From Deltaproteobacteria bacterium (GTDB taxonomy: Bacteria > Desulfobacterota > Desulfuromonadia > Desulfuromonadales > BM103): a stretch of 32,986 nucleotides of DNA. A program made the translations under genes and the position numbers. The stretch covers positions 1 to 32,986 of the forward strand of contig JAFDBS010000165.1 of the NCBI GenBank assembly GCA_019313185.1, in the 5' to 3' direction. Under the pieces are notes generated by a model. It was not told the DNA's origin, did not search any database, and worked only from the letters and a program-made list of their open reading frames with translations. Positions 19,326 to 32,619 of the stretch are shown piece by piece (position 1 is the stretch's first letter; each line of letters starts with the position of its first letter).

Positions 19326-20342
19326 TCACTTCCTGCACTTTCGCAACAGCAAACCGATCATTGCGCACATCATGAGAGTGACCATGCCACCAACGACTCC
19401 AGCAACACTGGTGGACAGGGGCGCTGTTTGGCCAGCTGACAAATTTTCATTTTCGTTATCTGGGGGAAATGCATAATCTCTCATTATGGCCGTTTTGTCT
19501 TGCAGAGCAGATGCGCGGACGTGTTCTGTGGATGATGGGGGAGGAAGTTCTTCTGCTCCAGTCAACTTGGCAATCGACCATTCAAGACCATCCGGGGATT
19601 CGGAAGCTAACCACGAGAGTCCTCCGGCTAGGGTAAAACTGGCCACCAAAAAGGTGACAACTATGGTTCGCTGCGGAAGCTGACCAATTGGCTGGGATCG
19701 TAAGGCCGCATCCAGTATTTCAGGCCGAGCACGGTAAACAAAAAGAACCACAAAAGCCGTCACGATACCTTCAATAATGCCGATTGCCAGATGAATTGGC
19801 TGCATCAGCATAAGAAATGAACTGAAAGGTAGTGCAGCGACACCTGAGGCAACCGTTTGTAGCACTACACCCAAGGCCCCTAATTGAAGACCAATGACTG
19901 CCGACACAACGGCAGCAAAGAAAATGCGTGATGGCTTCAACGGTCGGCCAACCAAACGCTTGTAAATCCAAGGGTAAGCGATAAAAGCCGGGAAAAAACC
20001 AAGGTTGATGATATTGCACCCTAACGCCAACAATCCCCCATCCGCAAAGAAAAGGGCTTGGACCATCAGCACAGAGGCAATACTCAAAAACGCGGCATGG
20101 GGCCCCAACAAAATTGCCAACAGCAACCCTCCGCCAAGATGACCGCTCGACCCAGTGGCCGGGATGGCAAAATTTATCATCTGTGCCGCAAAAACAAAAG
20201 CGCCGAACACGCCCATAAGAGGAATTTTGCGGTCATTTATCTCTTGTTTTACACGATTCGAACAGTAAGCTATCGTACCTGCCGACACAGTCCAAAGAAC
20301 TCCCCCGACTGTGGGCGATATCAACGCATCAGCCATGTGCAT
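19326..20342 (-). CDS. cbiM: CbiM-type Co2+/Ni2+ substrate-binding membrane protein fused to a PDGLE/CbiN-like domain
   Basis: The 338-residue S component. It starts MHMADALISP; the free amino end and His2 form the metal site in CbiM/NikM, so the start matters. AGGAGGTG 7 bases before ATG 20342 supports it over a start nine codons upstream. About six membrane helices follow, with GSSGHLGGGLLLAILLGPHAA. The last 100 residues hold a periplasmic PDGLE segment (SPDGLEWSIAKL) and a final helix, replacing a separate CbiN. Co2+ or Ni2+ cannot be told apart from sequence; no cobalamin riboswitch is visible. The promoter region has repeated motifs. Confidence 0.93.
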   Translation of the reverse strand: MHMADALISPTVGGVLWTVSAGTIAYCSNRVKQEINDRKIPLMGVFGAFVFAAQMINFAIPATGSSGHLGGGLLLAILLGPHAAFLSIASVLMVQALFFADGGLLALGCNIINLGFFPAFIAYPWIYKRLVGRPLKPSRIFFAAVVSAVIGLQLGALGVVLQTVASGVAALPFSSFLMLMQPIHLAIGIIEGIVTAFVVLFVYRARPEILDAALRSQPIGQLPQRTIVVTFLVASFTLAGGLSWLASESPDGLEWSIAKLTGAEELPPPSSTEHVRASALQDKTAIMRDYAFPPDNENENLSAGQTAPLSTSVAGVVGGMVTLMMCAMIGLLLRKCRK

Positions 20343-20388
20343 ACACCCACCTCCTGCTAGCCCGAACATTTAGTTCATTATTTATCAG

Positions 20389-26834: not shown

Positions 26835-27956
26835 TCACCCTTCGGAGAGATAAAAATTAGGTAGGCTAAAGGTGAATGTTGATCCTTGGCCAAGCACGCT
26901 TTCTGCCCAAATCCGGCCGTTGTGAGCGTTGATAATCTTTCGCGATATGGCCAACCCTAAACCCGTCTGGCGGTCTTCTCGAGTTGTTTTTGTTTTGATG
27001 TCTGGATAGGGCTGAAAGAGTTTGCTCATATCACCCTTGGCAATTCCCGGGCCGTTGTCGATCACGGAAACCTGAAGCTGGCCACTCATTAAAGAAGCGT
27101 TGACAATGACTTTTTGCCCTTCAGGAGAAAATTTGAGTGCATTTGAAATCAAGTTGTTCAGCACTTGTTTGATTCGGGGCGTATCGAAACTAATTTTACC
27201 AGGTGGCAATTGATCGTCTAAAACCAATTCAATACCACTTTTTTGGGCAAAAACCTGATTGATTTCAACGGTTTTACTCAACAGAACGGAAAAATCCTGA
27301 AGATGCAATTTCAGGCTAAGCTTTCCAGCTTCGATTATAGAAATGTCGAGCAGGTCGTTAATCATGGAGAGCATGAAATCGCTTAGGTAACGGATGTCGT
27401 TGAGCAAATGTAAATAGTCTGGGCGTTTGAAATTTTCTGGTTCCATCGCCATCAATTCGCTGTAACCCATAATAACCGTCAAGGGGTTTCGCAGATCATG
27501 AGCCGCCATTCCAAGAAAATGATTTTTCAATTCGTTCAACTTGGTCAGTTCAGCGCTCTTTTTATGAAGTTCACGGGTCAGATTGTTCAACTCATTGTTG
27601 CTTTGAACCAATTCTTGGCGCAGATTGTCCAATTCCAGCGTATCGATCTGTCCCAGCGCAAGGATTCCGTCGTTAAGCTCGTAAAATGAAAAATAGTAGG
27701 TCTGTGGTAAACCAGAAACTGTTGAGAGATTGAGGAGTTGGCCAGATGCCTGTTGTTGAGCACAACGTTTGAGAGAGAAGGTCCCGCGAAAGTCTAAAAA
27801 GATCTCATTGGCTTGTCGGCCCAGTTGATCATTGCCAAGTTGTTTTTGGGCGTGTTGATTTAGGTGGCAGAGCCGCTCTTGACCGTCAAATTCAAGGACG
27901 AGCAAAGCCGCAGTGCTCTCAAGAAAATTGAGCAAAATGGTGTCCCGCGATATCAA
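26835..27956 (-). CDS. soluble PAS-type sensor histidine kinase
   Basis: A 373-residue cytosolic kinase without membrane helices. Residues 1-105 look like a PAS domain (LLVLEFDGQERLCHLNQHA), residues 105-146 a coiled coil, then HisKA with phospho-acceptor H153 (MAAHDLRNPL) and a complete ATPase domain: N box NNLISNALKF, G1 DNGPGIAKG, F box and G2 TGLGLAI. The start is TTG 27956. The upstream neighbour, 10 bases away on the same strand, is a cobalamin-binding protein, the probable input partner. No response regulator follows; the receiver at 1.1 kb is the only orphan one in the window, too distant to link. Confidence 0.93.
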   Translation of the reverse strand: MISRDTILLNFLESTAALLVLEFDGQERLCHLNQHAQKQLGNDQLGRQANEIFLDFRGTFSLKRCAQQQASGQLLNLSTVSGLPQTYYFSFYELNDGILALGQIDTLELDNLRQELVQSNNELNNLTRELHKKSAELTKLNELKNHFLGMAAHDLRNPLTVIMGYSELMAMEPENFKRPDYLHLLNDIRYLSDFMLSMINDLLDISIIEAGKLSLKLHLQDFSVLLSKTVEINQVFAQKSGIELVLDDQLPPGKISFDTPRIKQVLNNLISNALKFSPEGQKVIVNASLMSGQLQVSVIDNGPGIAKGDMSKLFQPYPDIKTKTTREDRQTGLGLAISRKIINAHNGRIWAESVLGQGSTFTFSLPNFYLSEG

Positions 27957-27966
27957 TGTCTTAGCC

Positions 27967-28626
27967 TTATGAATTTTGGTCTATAAAATTTTCCAACGCA
28001 TCAAGAGAGACAACCAACTGGACCGAAGACGAAGGTGGGACAAAGGCTGTCTCTCCCCCCACAAAGGCTTGTCCGCCAACAATTATCGGCATCTTGGGAA
28101 ACCTGCAGGACAAGGTATCAACGTGATCCAGCAACACACCCAAATTGGAAATGAGCGTCAACGAAAAACATACAACGTCCGGTTTCTTCTCTCCGACCAG
28201 ATGCAAAAGATCTTTGACCGGCGTATTGGCACCAAGAAAATAGCCGTCCCAGCCATGCAGTTCAAAGATATCTGCCACCATTTTGCCGCCTATTTGATGA
28301 TACTCGTTTGCCACACAACTGATTACGGCTTTCCGGCCAGAATGTTCCGAAGCAAAAATCATCGGATGCAAGAGATTCATGGCGTTCTCGGTAATAGCGG
28401 TAGCGATATGTTCAACAGCGACCGAAATGCTGTTCGACTCCCAAAGCTCTCCAACAGCGTACATTGAGCGCTCGAAAAGACTCAAGTAGATGCTTTTCAA
28501 CGGCACCCCATGTCCCATCAGTTCCTCAACAATGGCCAGACAAGCTTGCCGCTGACCACTGAGGAGTGCATTGAAGTAATTAACATAGACCTTGTCAATT
28601 AGCTCATTGCTGTCTGACTGTTTCAT
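27967..28626 (-). CDS. CarH-like cobalamin-binding sensor protein
   Basis: A 219-residue two-domain B12-binding protein: an N-terminal helical cap and a C-terminal Rossmann-like cobalamin domain. It has the Wx9EH motif (W62, E72, H73) that in CarH photoreceptors cups the upper ligand of adenosylcobalamin, and the ExHxxG motif (E108, H110, G113) supplying the lower histidine. The residue after the Trp, His132 in CarH, is Glu here. The MerR DNA-binding domain of CarH is missing. I use ATG 28626; TTG 28686 adds 20 residues. The gene is 10 bases upstream of a histidine kinase on the same strand, so it may pass a light or cobalamin signal to it. That role is inference. Confidence 0.9.
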   Translation of the reverse strand: MKQSDSNELIDKVYVNYFNALLSGQRQACLAIVEELMGHGVPLKSIYLSLFERSMYAVGELWESNSISVAVEHIATAITENAMNLLHPMIFASEHSGRKAVISCVANEYHQIGGKMVADIFELHGWDGYFLGANTPVKDLLHLVGEKKPDVVCFSLTLISNLGVLLDHVDTLSCRFPKMPIIVGGQAFVGGETAFVPPSSSVQLVVSLDALENFIDQNS

Positions 28627-28741
28627 AAATGCCCTGTTCAGTTCGGCGAGATGTTTACTAACGTGTTTTATAACATATATTGGCAAGAAATAAATTCAAG
28701 AGCTTTTTCCTTGATCATGTAAGCCAGTTCAAAACTTTGTG

Positions 28742-28920: not shown

Positions 28921-29973
28921 ATGCTGTTATTAATTGTCTACATTTCGATTGCCCTTGGTTTTTCTTTTTTGTGCTCAATTGCCGAAGCCGTTTTGCTGAG
29001 TGTAACCGTACCCTACATAGCACTTTTGAAAACGCAAAATAAACCTTCAGCCAATCTTCTAGATAAATTAAAAACAGACATCAACCAACCTCTTGCCGCC
29101 ATATTGACACTTAACACCATTGCTCACACCGTAGGCGCCGCCGGCGCCGGTGCGCAAGCCGCCGCAGTGTTTGGCAGCGCTTTTGTCGGCATCACCTCAG
29201 CCATTTTAACCTTGCTCATTTTGATCGTTTCCGAAATCATCCCCAAAACATTAGGAGCTCATTACTGGCGGCAACTGGCACCGACAACAGCCTATGTGTT
29301 AAGGATGTTGGTCTGGGGACTCTATCCATTTGTCAAATTAACGGAGTTGTTGACCCGAAGCTTGACCGAAGGGCCAACCCTGCGAGGGATCAACCGCAAA
29401 GAGCTGATTGCATTGGCAGAAGTCAGCGGTCAGGAAGGGGCGTTAGCCCTTAAAGAGTCTGCAATCTTACAAAACCTCCTTCGTTTGCATGAAACCCCTG
29501 CAAAAGCTGCCATGACTCCACGGACTGTGGTTTTCTCGATCACAGAATCTCTCAGGGTTGGAGATTACTTTGCCTCATACGAAGACAAGCCTTTTTCTCG
29601 GATTCCTGTTTACCGTAATGATCCTGAGAATATCATTGGATTTGTCCTCCGCAGTGATTTGCTCCTAGCTCAAGTTCGCGGTCAAACCGACCGGACCATC
29701 GCTGACTTCACAAGAATGCTGCCCAACGTTCTCGAACAGACTGACCTTTCCCATATCTTTGACCGCTTTCTTCAAGAACGCGTACACATTATGCTCGTGA
29801 TTGACGAATACGGTGGGTTTTCAGGCATCCTCACTCTAGAGGATGTACTTGAAACCATGCTTGGCCAAGAAATAGTTGATGAGTTTGACGACACAGAAGA
29901 TATGCAGCTTCTTGCCCGCAAGCTTTGGAAAAAGCGTGCAAAACACCTCGGATTGGACATCAAGGACATCTGA
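28921..29973 (+). CDS. CNNM/CorC-type membrane protein (DUF21 + CBS pair)
   Basis: A 350-residue inner-membrane protein. Three or four helices make up the DUF21 part (SIAEAVLLSVTVPYI, then ILIVSEIIPKTLGAHYW), followed by an acidic helical linker and two CBS domains (MTPRTVVFS and VIDEYGGFSGILTLEDVLE). The C-terminal CorC_HlyC domain is absent, since the protein ends about 35 residues after the second CBS. The family is tied to Mg2+ or Co2+ homeostasis; a role here is not proven. The ribosome binding site is weak. The haem-oxygenase-like gene follows after 33 bases, suggesting an operon. Confidence 0.94.
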   Translation: MLLLIVYISIALGFSFLCSIAEAVLLSVTVPYIALLKTQNKPSANLLDKLKTDINQPLAAILTLNTIAHTVGAAGAGAQAAAVFGSAFVGITSAILTLLILIVSEIIPKTLGAHYWRQLAPTTAYVLRMLVWGLYPFVKLTELLTRSLTEGPTLRGINRKELIALAEVSGQEGALALKESAILQNLLRLHETPAKAAMTPRTVVFSITESLRVGDYFASYEDKPFSRIPVYRNDPENIIGFVLRSDLLLAQVRGQTDRTIADFTRMLPNVLEQTDLSHIFDRFLQERVHIMLVIDEYGGFSGILTLEDVLETMLGQEIVDEFDDTEDMQLLARKLWKKRAKHLGLDIKDI

Positions 29974-30006: not shown

Positions 30007-31296
30007 ATGAAGCACCCTGACCTTTTGATGCAACAGCTCAAATCAGCGACAAGCGCATTACATCGCAATTTAGAAGCGTTGCCTTTCTTTTCCGCATTGG
30101 CTGAAAGGACATTGCCTAAAATCAGCATCGTCGGGCAGCTGAGGGTGTTTGCCATTCAATTTAGTGTTTTGGAATCTGCCCTTGCAGAAACCAGGTTAAT
30201 CGGTCTGTCCAACCTCAAGAACGTGGTGACACAGAAAAAACATCAGCTTTTAGCTGATCTGGATGGGTTAGGAGAGCTTCTCCCTGACTTGAGGCCGACG
30301 GTCCAAGCCAGTCTAACCTGCGCAGCCTCTATGCGCAGCAAGACCCTCGAACAACCGGCGTCCCTGGTAGGCTATCTCTATGTTTTGGGAGGAACGGCTC
30401 TCGGCAACTTGACCCACGCTCATGATGCAGCGTATGCCATTGGCTTACCAATAGGGGAGAATTTGCAATTCTACAACACCAAAAGAAGTGAAGTCGCCGA
30501 GCAGTGGCATTTTTTTTCAAGTCAGGTTAATCGCTTGGAGTTTTCTGACAAACAATGTCAGGAATCGATCGACGCCGCAAAAGAGCTCTTTCACTTTTTG
30601 CATCAAATCCACGCAACCCTTTATCCTTTCGCAAAGCGTGACCTCTATTTTTGTGCAACAACCATAAACCCTGAAGCGGGCAACCATCCTGTCCCGAACA
30701 ACCTTGATGAAATCGAGGCAGCGATTCGGGCAGGTGCACGGTGTTGCAATGAGTTCCCATACTTCAATTTGCGTTATCAGGCCCGTGGCAAAAGGTTTAC
30801 CGACAGTGATGCAGCCTGGTTGGCGACATTGTATGACCTCGAGGACAACGCCGCTTTGGCCCAAGTCACATGGCTGGCAAGGGTTTTAGCCGCTCGTGGC
30901 ATGCCGTCGATAACCCTGATACGGCAACTGAAGCTTCTCTATGAAGAGCTTGCCGCAACAGTACCAGAAAAACAAAAGCGTTATGAAACACTTATCAAAA
31001 TTGCCAAGAATCTCGAAAGCGAGCAAACCAGAGCGGTCGCTCAAACCACGAGGAGAGCCCTGATCAAAAATTTTGAACAGATGGCCCCTGAGACGGAACT
31101 GGCAAACTTTCCCGATGCCGGCGAGCTGTTTCTCTCTGCAGCGCTTGATGAGCATCTTGGCCGAACCAATGCCATTACAAGTTTGGAGGCTTGGCTTGCA
31201 AACCCTCAGAAATTTTCGGCAACCTGGATTGCTGCAGTCAAAAATCTCGTCGCCGAAACCCAACAGGCCATCGCAGAAAAGTCAAAAAAGAACTGA
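30007..31296 (+). CDS. haem-oxygenase-like domain fused to an unnamed helical C-terminal domain
   Basis: A 429-residue protein. Residues 1-200 resemble bacterial haem oxygenases: TSALHRNLEALPFFSAL with a candidate proximal His (H19), then YLYVLGGTALGNLTHAH (about 122-138), the region of the distal helix, and EQWHFFSSQVNRL. Usual haem oxygenases have YVLEGSxLGG in the distal region; the Glu and one Gly are replaced, so haem binding or activity is unsure. Residues ~200-429 form a helical region without a name known to me (RFTDSDAAWLATLYDL, WLARVLAARGMPS). AAAAGGAG stands 10 bases before the ATG. If active it would release biliverdin, iron and CO. Confidence 0.75.
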   Translation: MKHPDLLMQQLKSATSALHRNLEALPFFSALAERTLPKISIVGQLRVFAIQFSVLESALAETRLIGLSNLKNVVTQKKHQLLADLDGLGELLPDLRPTVQASLTCAASMRSKTLEQPASLVGYLYVLGGTALGNLTHAHDAAYAIGLPIGENLQFYNTKRSEVAEQWHFFSSQVNRLEFSDKQCQESIDAAKELFHFLHQIHATLYPFAKRDLYFCATTINPEAGNHPVPNNLDEIEAAIRAGARCCNEFPYFNLRYQARGKRFTDSDAAWLATLYDLEDNAALAQVTWLARVLAARGMPSITLIRQLKLLYEELAATVPEKQKRYETLIKIAKNLESEQTRAVAQTTRRALIKNFEQMAPETELANFPDAGELFLSAALDEHLGRTNAITSLEAWLANPQKFSATWIAAVKNLVAETQQAIAEKSKKN

Positions 31297-31377: not shown

Positions 31378-32619
31378 TCAGCTATTTGCGTCCAATGTGC
31401 TGAGCAGAGCCATGAAAAAAGGATACTCGCCGGTGTCGATGATTTTTATCGACATTTTAAGCTTCACTGTTTTTTGATCACGACGCAAGCCAATGAGATG
31501 ATGTTCCTGTTCAAACCATTGTTCCGGTGCCTTGGCAATAAAGCTTGACAAACTCGGCACGTAACTCTCTTCATCGGGAAGGAACAAGCGATCAAACGAT
31601 TCGCCCAACAGCTCGTTTTCCTTGTAACCAAATATCTTCTCGGCTTTTTGGTTGAACAGAAACATCTGGCCATTTGGCAAAAAAGCGACAATTGCATCTC
31701 GAGCGATTTCTGTCATCAAGCGGAAACGCGTTTCTGACTCCTCAAGCTGTCCGGTTTTTTCTTTAAGTTCACTGACCATGGCATTAAACCCTGCTACCAG
31801 ATCACCAATTTCATCATGGGTATCACGGGAAATGGCTTCTGTAAAACGGCCCGTTTGGCGAATGTCGTCTATGGTTTGTGACAACACACTAAGGGGTGTA
31901 ACGACCGTTTTCCGTATCATCAAACCAAGGCAGATCACCAGAGCGCAAAAAAAGCCTGCCGTCGTGACCAATGTTGTATTGAACCCGTGCGCCAGCCTTT
32001 TCTCTATCTGCGCAATCGGAATAACCACAGAGACCGCACCGATCACTTCTCCGATTTTGTAATTATAGGCTTGGTCCTTTTCTGGCGGATAAATATTCCT
32101 CAAAAATTGTGGAGATTCATCTGGTTTGCCGTGACATTCCAAACAACTGGAGTCGGCATATGCTGCCTGCAAATAACGAAACACAGGGTTGCCATCAAAC
32201 TCTGTGACCTCAGCTACATAATCAAGGCTTGCTCGATTAGTCATACGTTCTAACACTTTACGTTCATATTGATCAGGAGCATTTTCGGGGTTTCGAAACC
32301 GATTTGACGTATGACGGATGCTATACGTCAAGTCTTCACTAACCAGTCTGCCAATCCGATTCGCAACAACAACCGGAATCATTCCGTATCGGTCTTCGTT
32401 TAGTTCGATTTGGCCAATCTGGAGCTGTCTGGAAATGTACTCCCGAGTACGAGTCGCTTCTGTGATGATGATTTCAGCCTTTTCGCTTGCTTCGGAAAAA
32501 ACCAATCTTTGATGTTGACGATATTGCCAAATTAAACTTGTGGAAAGCAAGCCTGCAAGACTTATCAATAAAATGATGTTGACTTTCGTCCGCAGGCGAA
32601 AATTTTGCCAAAACCGCAT
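31378..32619 (-). CDS. membrane c-haem sensor (DUF3365-HAMP-PAS) without output domain
   Basis: A 413-residue protein. A first membrane helix (residues ~13-30) and a second (~215-235) enclose a periplasmic DUF3365/Tll0287-like domain with one c-haem site CLECH (C159, C162, H163). HAMP (SVLSQTIDDIRQTGRF...DEIGDLVAGFNAMVSEL) and a PAS domain (FLPNGQMFLFNQKAEKIFGYKENELLGESF) follow. Relatives normally continue into a histidine kinase, cyclase or chemotaxis domain, but here the protein stops at the end of PAS (FFMALLSTLDANS). Either it signals by protein contact or the output module was lost. It is convergent with the haem-oxygenase-like gene. Confidence 0.92.
   Translation of the reverse strand: MRFWQNFRLRTKVNIILLISLAGLLSTSLIWQYRQHQRLVFSEASEKAEIIITEATRTREYISRQLQIGQIELNEDRYGMIPVVVANRIGRLVSEDLTYSIRHTSNRFRNPENAPDQYERKVLERMTNRASLDYVAEVTEFDGNPVFRYLQAAYADSSCLECHGKPDESPQFLRNIYPPEKDQAYNYKIGEVIGAVSVVIPIAQIEKRLAHGFNTTLVTTAGFFCALVICLGLMIRKTVVTPLSVLSQTIDDIRQTGRFTEAISRDTHDEIGDLVAGFNAMVSELKEKTGQLEESETRFRLMTEIARDAIVAFLPNGQMFLFNQKAEKIFGYKENELLGESFDRLFLPDEESYVPSLSSFIAKAPEQWFEQEHHLIGLRRDQKTVKLKMSIKIIDTGEYPFFMALLSTLDANS

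Follow-up and report, generated by a model that had tools for sequence, protein, structure and literature searches.

A haem oxygenase-globin fusion as a probable component of a light sensor with two pigments and with B12 and two-component partners

The locus and its genes

The stretch of DNA studied here (the window) comprises 32,986 nucleotides of contig JAFDBS010000165.1 from a Deltaproteobacteria bacterium (assembly GCA_019313185.1). On its forward strand, an open reading frame at 30007..31296 encodes a protein of 429 amino acids in which a haem oxygenase domain is followed by a domain that we assign below to the bilin-binding globins; we call it the HO-globin. Its ATG start has a good ribosome-binding site (AAAAGGAGT, located 7 nt 5'), the AlphaFold model of the full chain reaches pLDDT 96 and pTM 0.92, and a homologue with 41% identity carries the domains in the same order.

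Two reverse-strand genes lie 1.3-2 kb from the HO-globin gene. The first encodes a B12-binding sensor protein of 239 amino acids (27967..28686; B12-binding_2 and B12-binding in Pfam) and the second, which begins 10 bp downstream of it, a soluble histidine kinase of 373 amino acids (26835..27956; HisKA and HATPase_c in Pfam). Among solved structures in the PDB, the B12 protein comes closest to the photocobilin SasPcob (8j2w/8j2x, E 4e-22), and CarH (5c8a) is matched at E 3.5e-6. It shares with the CarH-type AdoCbl photoreceptors the B12-binding fold, the Wx9EH motif (W82, E92-H93) and the base-off His motif (ExHxxG, H130), so that the W-EH and ExH motifs of the photocobilin B12 domain are both present; unlike CarH, it has no DNA-binding domain. 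Glu83, directly after the Trp, stands at what we take to be the position of the second His ligand of CarH. In the kinase, residues 1-140 have no Pfam match above cut-off, with PAS_8 appearing only weakly, and their homologues are found beside HO-globin or B12 genes at about 40 loci; its distribution suggests that this region may serve the HO-globin/B12 system alone, for sensing or for docking.

The genes that directly flank the HO-globin were also considered as partners. A CNNM/CBS membrane protein (28921..29973, forward strand; PF01595 and CBS) is encoded 33 bp upstream and is probably cotranscribed with the HO-globin, but it is probably not a component of the system, as it adjoins the HO-globin gene in the window and not at the other loci. 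On the other side lies a Tll0287-like/CxxCH c-haem sensor with HAMP and PAS domains (31378..32619, reverse strand; Pfam), in whose reading frame a Pfam scan found no kinase or other output domain. The initial annotation had pointed to the proximity of both this protein and the B12 sensor. Both are indeed close in the window, but a Tll0287 neighbour occurs at none of the other loci, and we rejected the c-haem sensor as a conserved partner. Further away, about 7 kb from the B12 sensor, the window also encodes a CbiM/PDGLE cobalt-uptake component (19326-20369, reverse strand).

The haem oxygenase domain

That the N-terminal part is haem-oxygenase-like had been noticed in the initial annotation, and our searches agree. 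Residues 7-201 (30025..30609, forward strand) match PF01126 (Heme_oxygenase) with 40.6 bits and E 3e-10, above the Pfam cut-off of 23 bits. With the full HO-globin model, Foldseek returned haem oxygenases at probability 1.0, the best being that of Leptospira (5kzl; E 9.5e-5, TM(target) 0.79), and the family profile matched the haem oxygenases of the PDB at E 1.5e-19. His19 (30061..30063) is the predicted proximal haem ligand, since it falls, in the alignment with haem oxygenases of solved structure, on the helix that carries the proximal His; by alignment columns, this His is present in 54 of 61 full-length relatives. The domain thus has in common with HmuO, Leptospira HO and HO-1 the fold, the proximal His and the GxxxG motif. 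It differs from them in the extra C-terminal globin and in a distal motif of the form E/G-G-[ST]-x-x-G-[NA], from which the classical Asp is missing.

The distal helix (residues 119-144, 30361..30438; helical in the model) had been described as lacking the usual Glu and Gly. This was correct for the Glu: column counts put Glu at position 128 in 47 of the 61 relatives, and the window protein, which reads YVLGGTALGN, has Gly there. It was not correct for the Gly, as both glycines of GxxxG are kept (G129 in 58/61 relatives and G133 in 56/61, the window protein included). The residue after the second of these is most commonly Asn (29/61), as in the window, or Ala (21/61), and the Asp of the classical GDxxGG motif is replaced in the window protein by T130. 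The haem oxygenases that adjoin bilin reductases in Polyangiales have EGSALGS or EGAALGN in their distal helix, an EGxxLG(N/S) motif; because these enzymes also lack the classical GG, its loss is no mark of a dead enzyme.

The initial annotation went on to suggest that the protein binds a tetrapyrrole without degrading it. The premise fails in part, since His19 and the GxxxG glycines are in place, and yet catalysis could possibly have been lost in the window copy through E128G. Judged by sequence, such a loss is likely in a few paralogues without the His and is not the default of the family. Closest to that earlier suggestion is a reading in which the haem oxygenase domain is a non-degrading sensor of haem, O2, CO or redox state, whose signal the globin-like domain relays to the B12 protein and the kinase. 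It would account for E128G in the window copy, for the absent distal Asp (T130), for the relatives without a proximal His and for the often anaerobic hosts. We nevertheless consider it unlikely, because the proximal His (54/61) and the GxxxG glycines (56-58/61) are so widely kept, the EGxxLG(N/S) motif is common to haem oxygenases beside bilin reductases, and the partner domain belongs to a biliverdin-binding family with its bilin contacts preserved (see below).

Several Geobacteraceae genomes (G242, G244 and G246; loci L014, L015, L023, L038 and L042) hold three to six HO-globin paralogues each, and one clade of these paralogues has lost both the proximal His and the distal haem oxygenase motif while keeping the globin.

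The C-terminal domain and its predicted biliverdin contacts

The remaining residues, 201-429 (30607..31293, forward strand), about 230 in all, do lie outside the curated families, as had been proposed: searches of Pfam, NCBIfam and PDB sequences gave zero matches above threshold, and the weak Pfam matches to DUF892 and TPR_22 (E 0.03-0.2) are not common to the members of the family and were dismissed as chance. The two motifs singled out earlier as being of a conserved type, RFTDSDAAWLATL (residues 263-275) and WLARVLAARGMPS (residues 289-301), proved strongly conserved, and R260, G261, D268, W271, L275, W289, L294, G298, P300 and D381 are invariant across the 61 full-length relatives.

The statement that this part could not be assigned to a domain did not survive profile comparison. 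We built a profile from 70 C-terminal domains and searched Polyangiales for the bilin reductase family PF05996, which led to clusters (L112-L114) that encode a B12 protein, a globin, a reductase and a kinase. The globins of these clusters matched the 70-domain profile at E 1e-13 to 1e-18. In hhalign, the family aligned with the BBAG-2-type globins of the reductase clusters alone at probability 97.9 (E 3.6e-13), and with the globin domains of B12 proteins of the photocobilin type and their relations at probability 90.6 (E 1.3e-6, score 45.8). The latter set consisted of five hand-picked sequences, and for one of them, taken from the N-terminal part of the B12 protein at L092, the assignment was made by eye. 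For this second comparison, control scores did not exceed 23.2 in 100 column shuffles, or 18.3 when alignments of haem oxygenases, B12 proteins, kinases, receivers and HD-GYP proteins encoded at these loci took the place of the globins. We have left out an hhalign run against a set that already contained the family's own C-terminal domains. Based on these comparisons of sequence profiles, the C-terminal part can be assigned as a putative divergent member of the BBAG-2/photoglobin group, that is, of the bilin-binding globins, and on the strength of this homology we rejected a new, unrelated fold.

Structure prediction, which the initial annotation had proposed alongside the profile search, was less decisive. 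The C-terminal domain modelled alone is confidently all-helical (pLDDT 95), but the Foldseek matches of highest probability (0.5-0.82), to globins, a phycobilisome subunit and SasPcob, are weak (E 1-2, TM(query) 0.3-0.37), and such evidence from a predicted fold would not suffice by itself for the globin assignment. In one of the BBAG-2-type globins (L113:2196-3659, reverse strand), the second half also matches profile region 78-140, which suggests that the W..L..RG helix pair is repeated within the chain.

Biliverdin is bound in SasPcob through its A-C rings by Asp270 and has its D ring in contact with Trp296 (PMC10979010); the paper's numbering runs 6 ahead of the chain (its Trp61 is chain residue 55), so these two residues are chain residues 264 and 290. 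By an alignment procedure that is blind to bilin-contact residues, hhalign placed residues D68 and W89 of our domain on these positions. In the HO-globin they are Asp268 (30808..30810) and Trp289 (30871..30873), both of which are invariant in 70/70 C-terminal domains. The BBAG-2-type globins have the Asp and the Trp as well, with a spacing of 26 as in SasPcob. A partner domain from a biliverdin-binding family, with the bilin contacts in place, would explain why an oxygenase is attached.

Gene linkage and a possible split photocobilin

A scan of GTDB genomes found 78 loci in what are, going by the titles of the records, about 15 phyla, mostly in metagenome-assembled genomes; the phyla include Thermodesulfobacteriota, Pseudomonadota, Verrucomicrobiota, Acidobacteriota, Myxococcota, Nitrospirota, Chloroflexota, Gemmatimonadota and Bacteroidota. 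The C-terminal domain is patchily distributed: of the 277 genomes in the class to which the window belongs, only 18 encode it. A plasmid search for its relatives and for the haem oxygenase domain found none. The HO-globin is the commonest architecture, next to the C-terminal domain alone and a fusion of haem oxygenase, globin and B12 domain at two Rhodoferax loci (L054 and L076, the latter encoding 658 amino acids). Stand-alone C-terminal domains occur at L083 and L093 (Sorangium), L062 (Nannocystis), L065 (Thiocapsa) and L069, and also in Gemmatimonadota and others; the one in Thiocapsa roseopersicina is divergent from a B12 gene and near a gene for a GAF-PAS-GGDEF-EAL protein.

Linkage was counted at the 55 loci where the gene has 1.5 kb or more of sequence to its left and to its right; some of these loci are paralogues from one genome. 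Within 2 kb of the HO-globin family gene, a B12 gene is found at 38 of these loci, a kinase at 34 and both at 28, and the order B12-kinase-HO-globin-receiver recurs among loci. In the assembled genome of the window organism (86% complete) there is one match each to PF01126 and to the B12-binding_2 family PF02607, and both are in the window. Because the arrangement is conserved across loci and brings together the only such domains of this assembled genome, the linkage is not due to chance. The tetrapyrrole theme and the nearby B12 sensor, which the initial annotation had offered as a clue, were therefore well chosen, since the B12 gene recurs beside the relatives of the HO-globin, and the protein seems to belong to a light sensor with two pigments rather than to be an orphan haem protein.

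Two known systems invite comparison. In Myxococcota, the globin BBAG-2, which was shown to bind biliverdin, is encoded in one type of cluster together with a B12-binding protein and with a bilin reductase of the pre-PcyA kind, and the association of globin, haem oxygenase and B12 protein has thus been published (PMC10151467). The HO-globin resembles BBAG-2 in its homologous globin domain and in its association with B12-binding proteins, haem oxygenase and kinase; in contrast, BBAG-2 is a separate globin, usually beside a ferredoxin-dependent bilin reductase, and ours is fused behind the haem oxygenase. The photocobilins SasPcob and AbDPcob (PDB 8J2W, 8J2X, 8J2Y), which bind B12 and biliverdin (PMC10979010), have a B12-binding domain of the same type and a globin that is distantly related to ours and has the Asp and the Trp that contact biliverdin. 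They join globin and B12 domain in one chain without a haem oxygenase, either standing alone or with outputs such as a diguanylate cyclase, whereas here the globin sits on the haem oxygenase, the B12 domain is usually separate and a histidine kinase presumably provides the output. A single globin-B12 chain is found only at the two Rhodoferax loci, with the haem oxygenase in front; in the window, the two are separate genes.

We favour, at somewhat better than even chances, the reading that in the HO-globin a haem oxygenase is joined to a globin that binds biliverdin, and that the protein acts as one component of a split photocobilin with a two-component output. The N-terminal domain would cleave haem to biliverdin, which, as homology and invariance suggest, would be held in the globin by Asp268 and Trp289. 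The loaded globin would dock on the separate B12 protein as the globin of photocobilins does on its B12 domain, a step to which the linked genes, the fusions of HO-globin and B12 domain and the photocobilin structures all point, and the biliverdin would extend the B12 photosensor into red light. By the gene order, the light state of the B12 protein would then make the dedicated soluble histidine kinase more or less active, and this kinase would phosphorylate a response regulator, which is encoded adjacent at many loci and not in the window.

Some observations do not sit easily with a split photocobilin. Besides E128G in the window copy, a B12 gene is missing from the surrounding 2 kb at 17 of the 55 loci, and many hosts come from anaerobic lineages, while haem oxygenase requires O2. 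The proximal His is absent from 7 of the 61 relatives, and six genes consist of the C-terminal domain only, so that on-board synthesis of biliverdin is not essential to the family. Some B12 partners, such as that at L092, have an extra N-terminal helical domain that seems photoglobin-like, which means that the docking arrangement may vary.

The B12 protein could respond to cobalamin supply or redox state and not to light, with the tetrapyrrole-binding protein adding a haem or iron signal, so that the whole would be a two-component system for tetrapyrrole status. The anaerobic and often dark habitats of many hosts would fit, as would the cobalt ECF transporter gene (CbiM) in the same window. 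But Wx9EH, a signature discussed for AdoCbl photosensors, is present in 48 of 52 B12 neighbours, the nearest solved structures are photocobilins and the window contains no cobalamin riboswitch, and we regard this possibility as decidedly unlikely.

The HO-globin might also be a biliverdin factory and carrier only, with the globin passing the product to another acceptor outside the photosensor. A chain that unites haem oxygenase and globin, with the B12 sensor mostly encoded apart from it, would suit such a role, as would the globins that occur elsewhere without a haem oxygenase. Against this, we see no candidate for such an acceptor: the window organism's assembled genome (86% complete) has no phytochrome PHY domain and 15 genomes of relatives have no bilin reductase (PF05996), on which grounds we rejected both as users of the biliverdin, and the fusions of HO-globin and B12 domain unite carrier and sensor. 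We hold a pure carrier to be improbable. Haem oxygenases often serve in iron release, and an ordinary enzyme of haem-iron acquisition with an accessory domain could be imagined on that precedent; the recurrent neighbours are nevertheless a B12 sensor, a kinase and a receiver, with no recurrent haem uptake genes, and this explanation seems to us very far-fetched.

Returning to the split photocobilin, biliverdin forms only where haem and O2 are available, so its sensitivity to red light would be gated by O2. The loci might then represent a widespread, undescribed class of two-component photoreceptors that make their own second chromophore and work as an AND gate for light and oxygen, an idea that we put forward tentatively and think doubtful as a whole; an O2 gate through biliverdin loading is speculation and presupposes that catalysis is real. 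The parts are known, but their combination in the HO-globin fusion and kinase module appears to be undescribed: a literature search that did not extend to the founding paper on photoglobins, and so leaves room for an earlier account, found no description of the HO-globin fusion, of its fusion to a B12 domain or of the linked kinase family.

These results give a testable identity to a domain that had no name although it spans about 15 phyla, and tie it to one type of locus with a haem oxygenase-globin, a B12 sensor and a kinase. If the split photocobilin is real, photocobilin-like sensing extends to two-component systems in many bacteria that have no reputation for responding to light, anaerobic lineages among them. 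The family is also relevant to the question of how bilin-binding globins, which are relatives of the phycobiliproteins, arose beside haem oxygenase and B12 proteins. The Rhodoferax chain, with biliverdin synthase, holder and B12 photosensor in one polypeptide, would in that case be a compact optogenetic part. As to the response regulators, the one that we scanned (L044) has no DNA-binding domain. Those at L044:8830-9444, L050:10419-11102 and L041:6550-7290 share a conserved Cys-rich tail, PICxxCKxIRDDxGYW...CPxC, that has no Pfam name.
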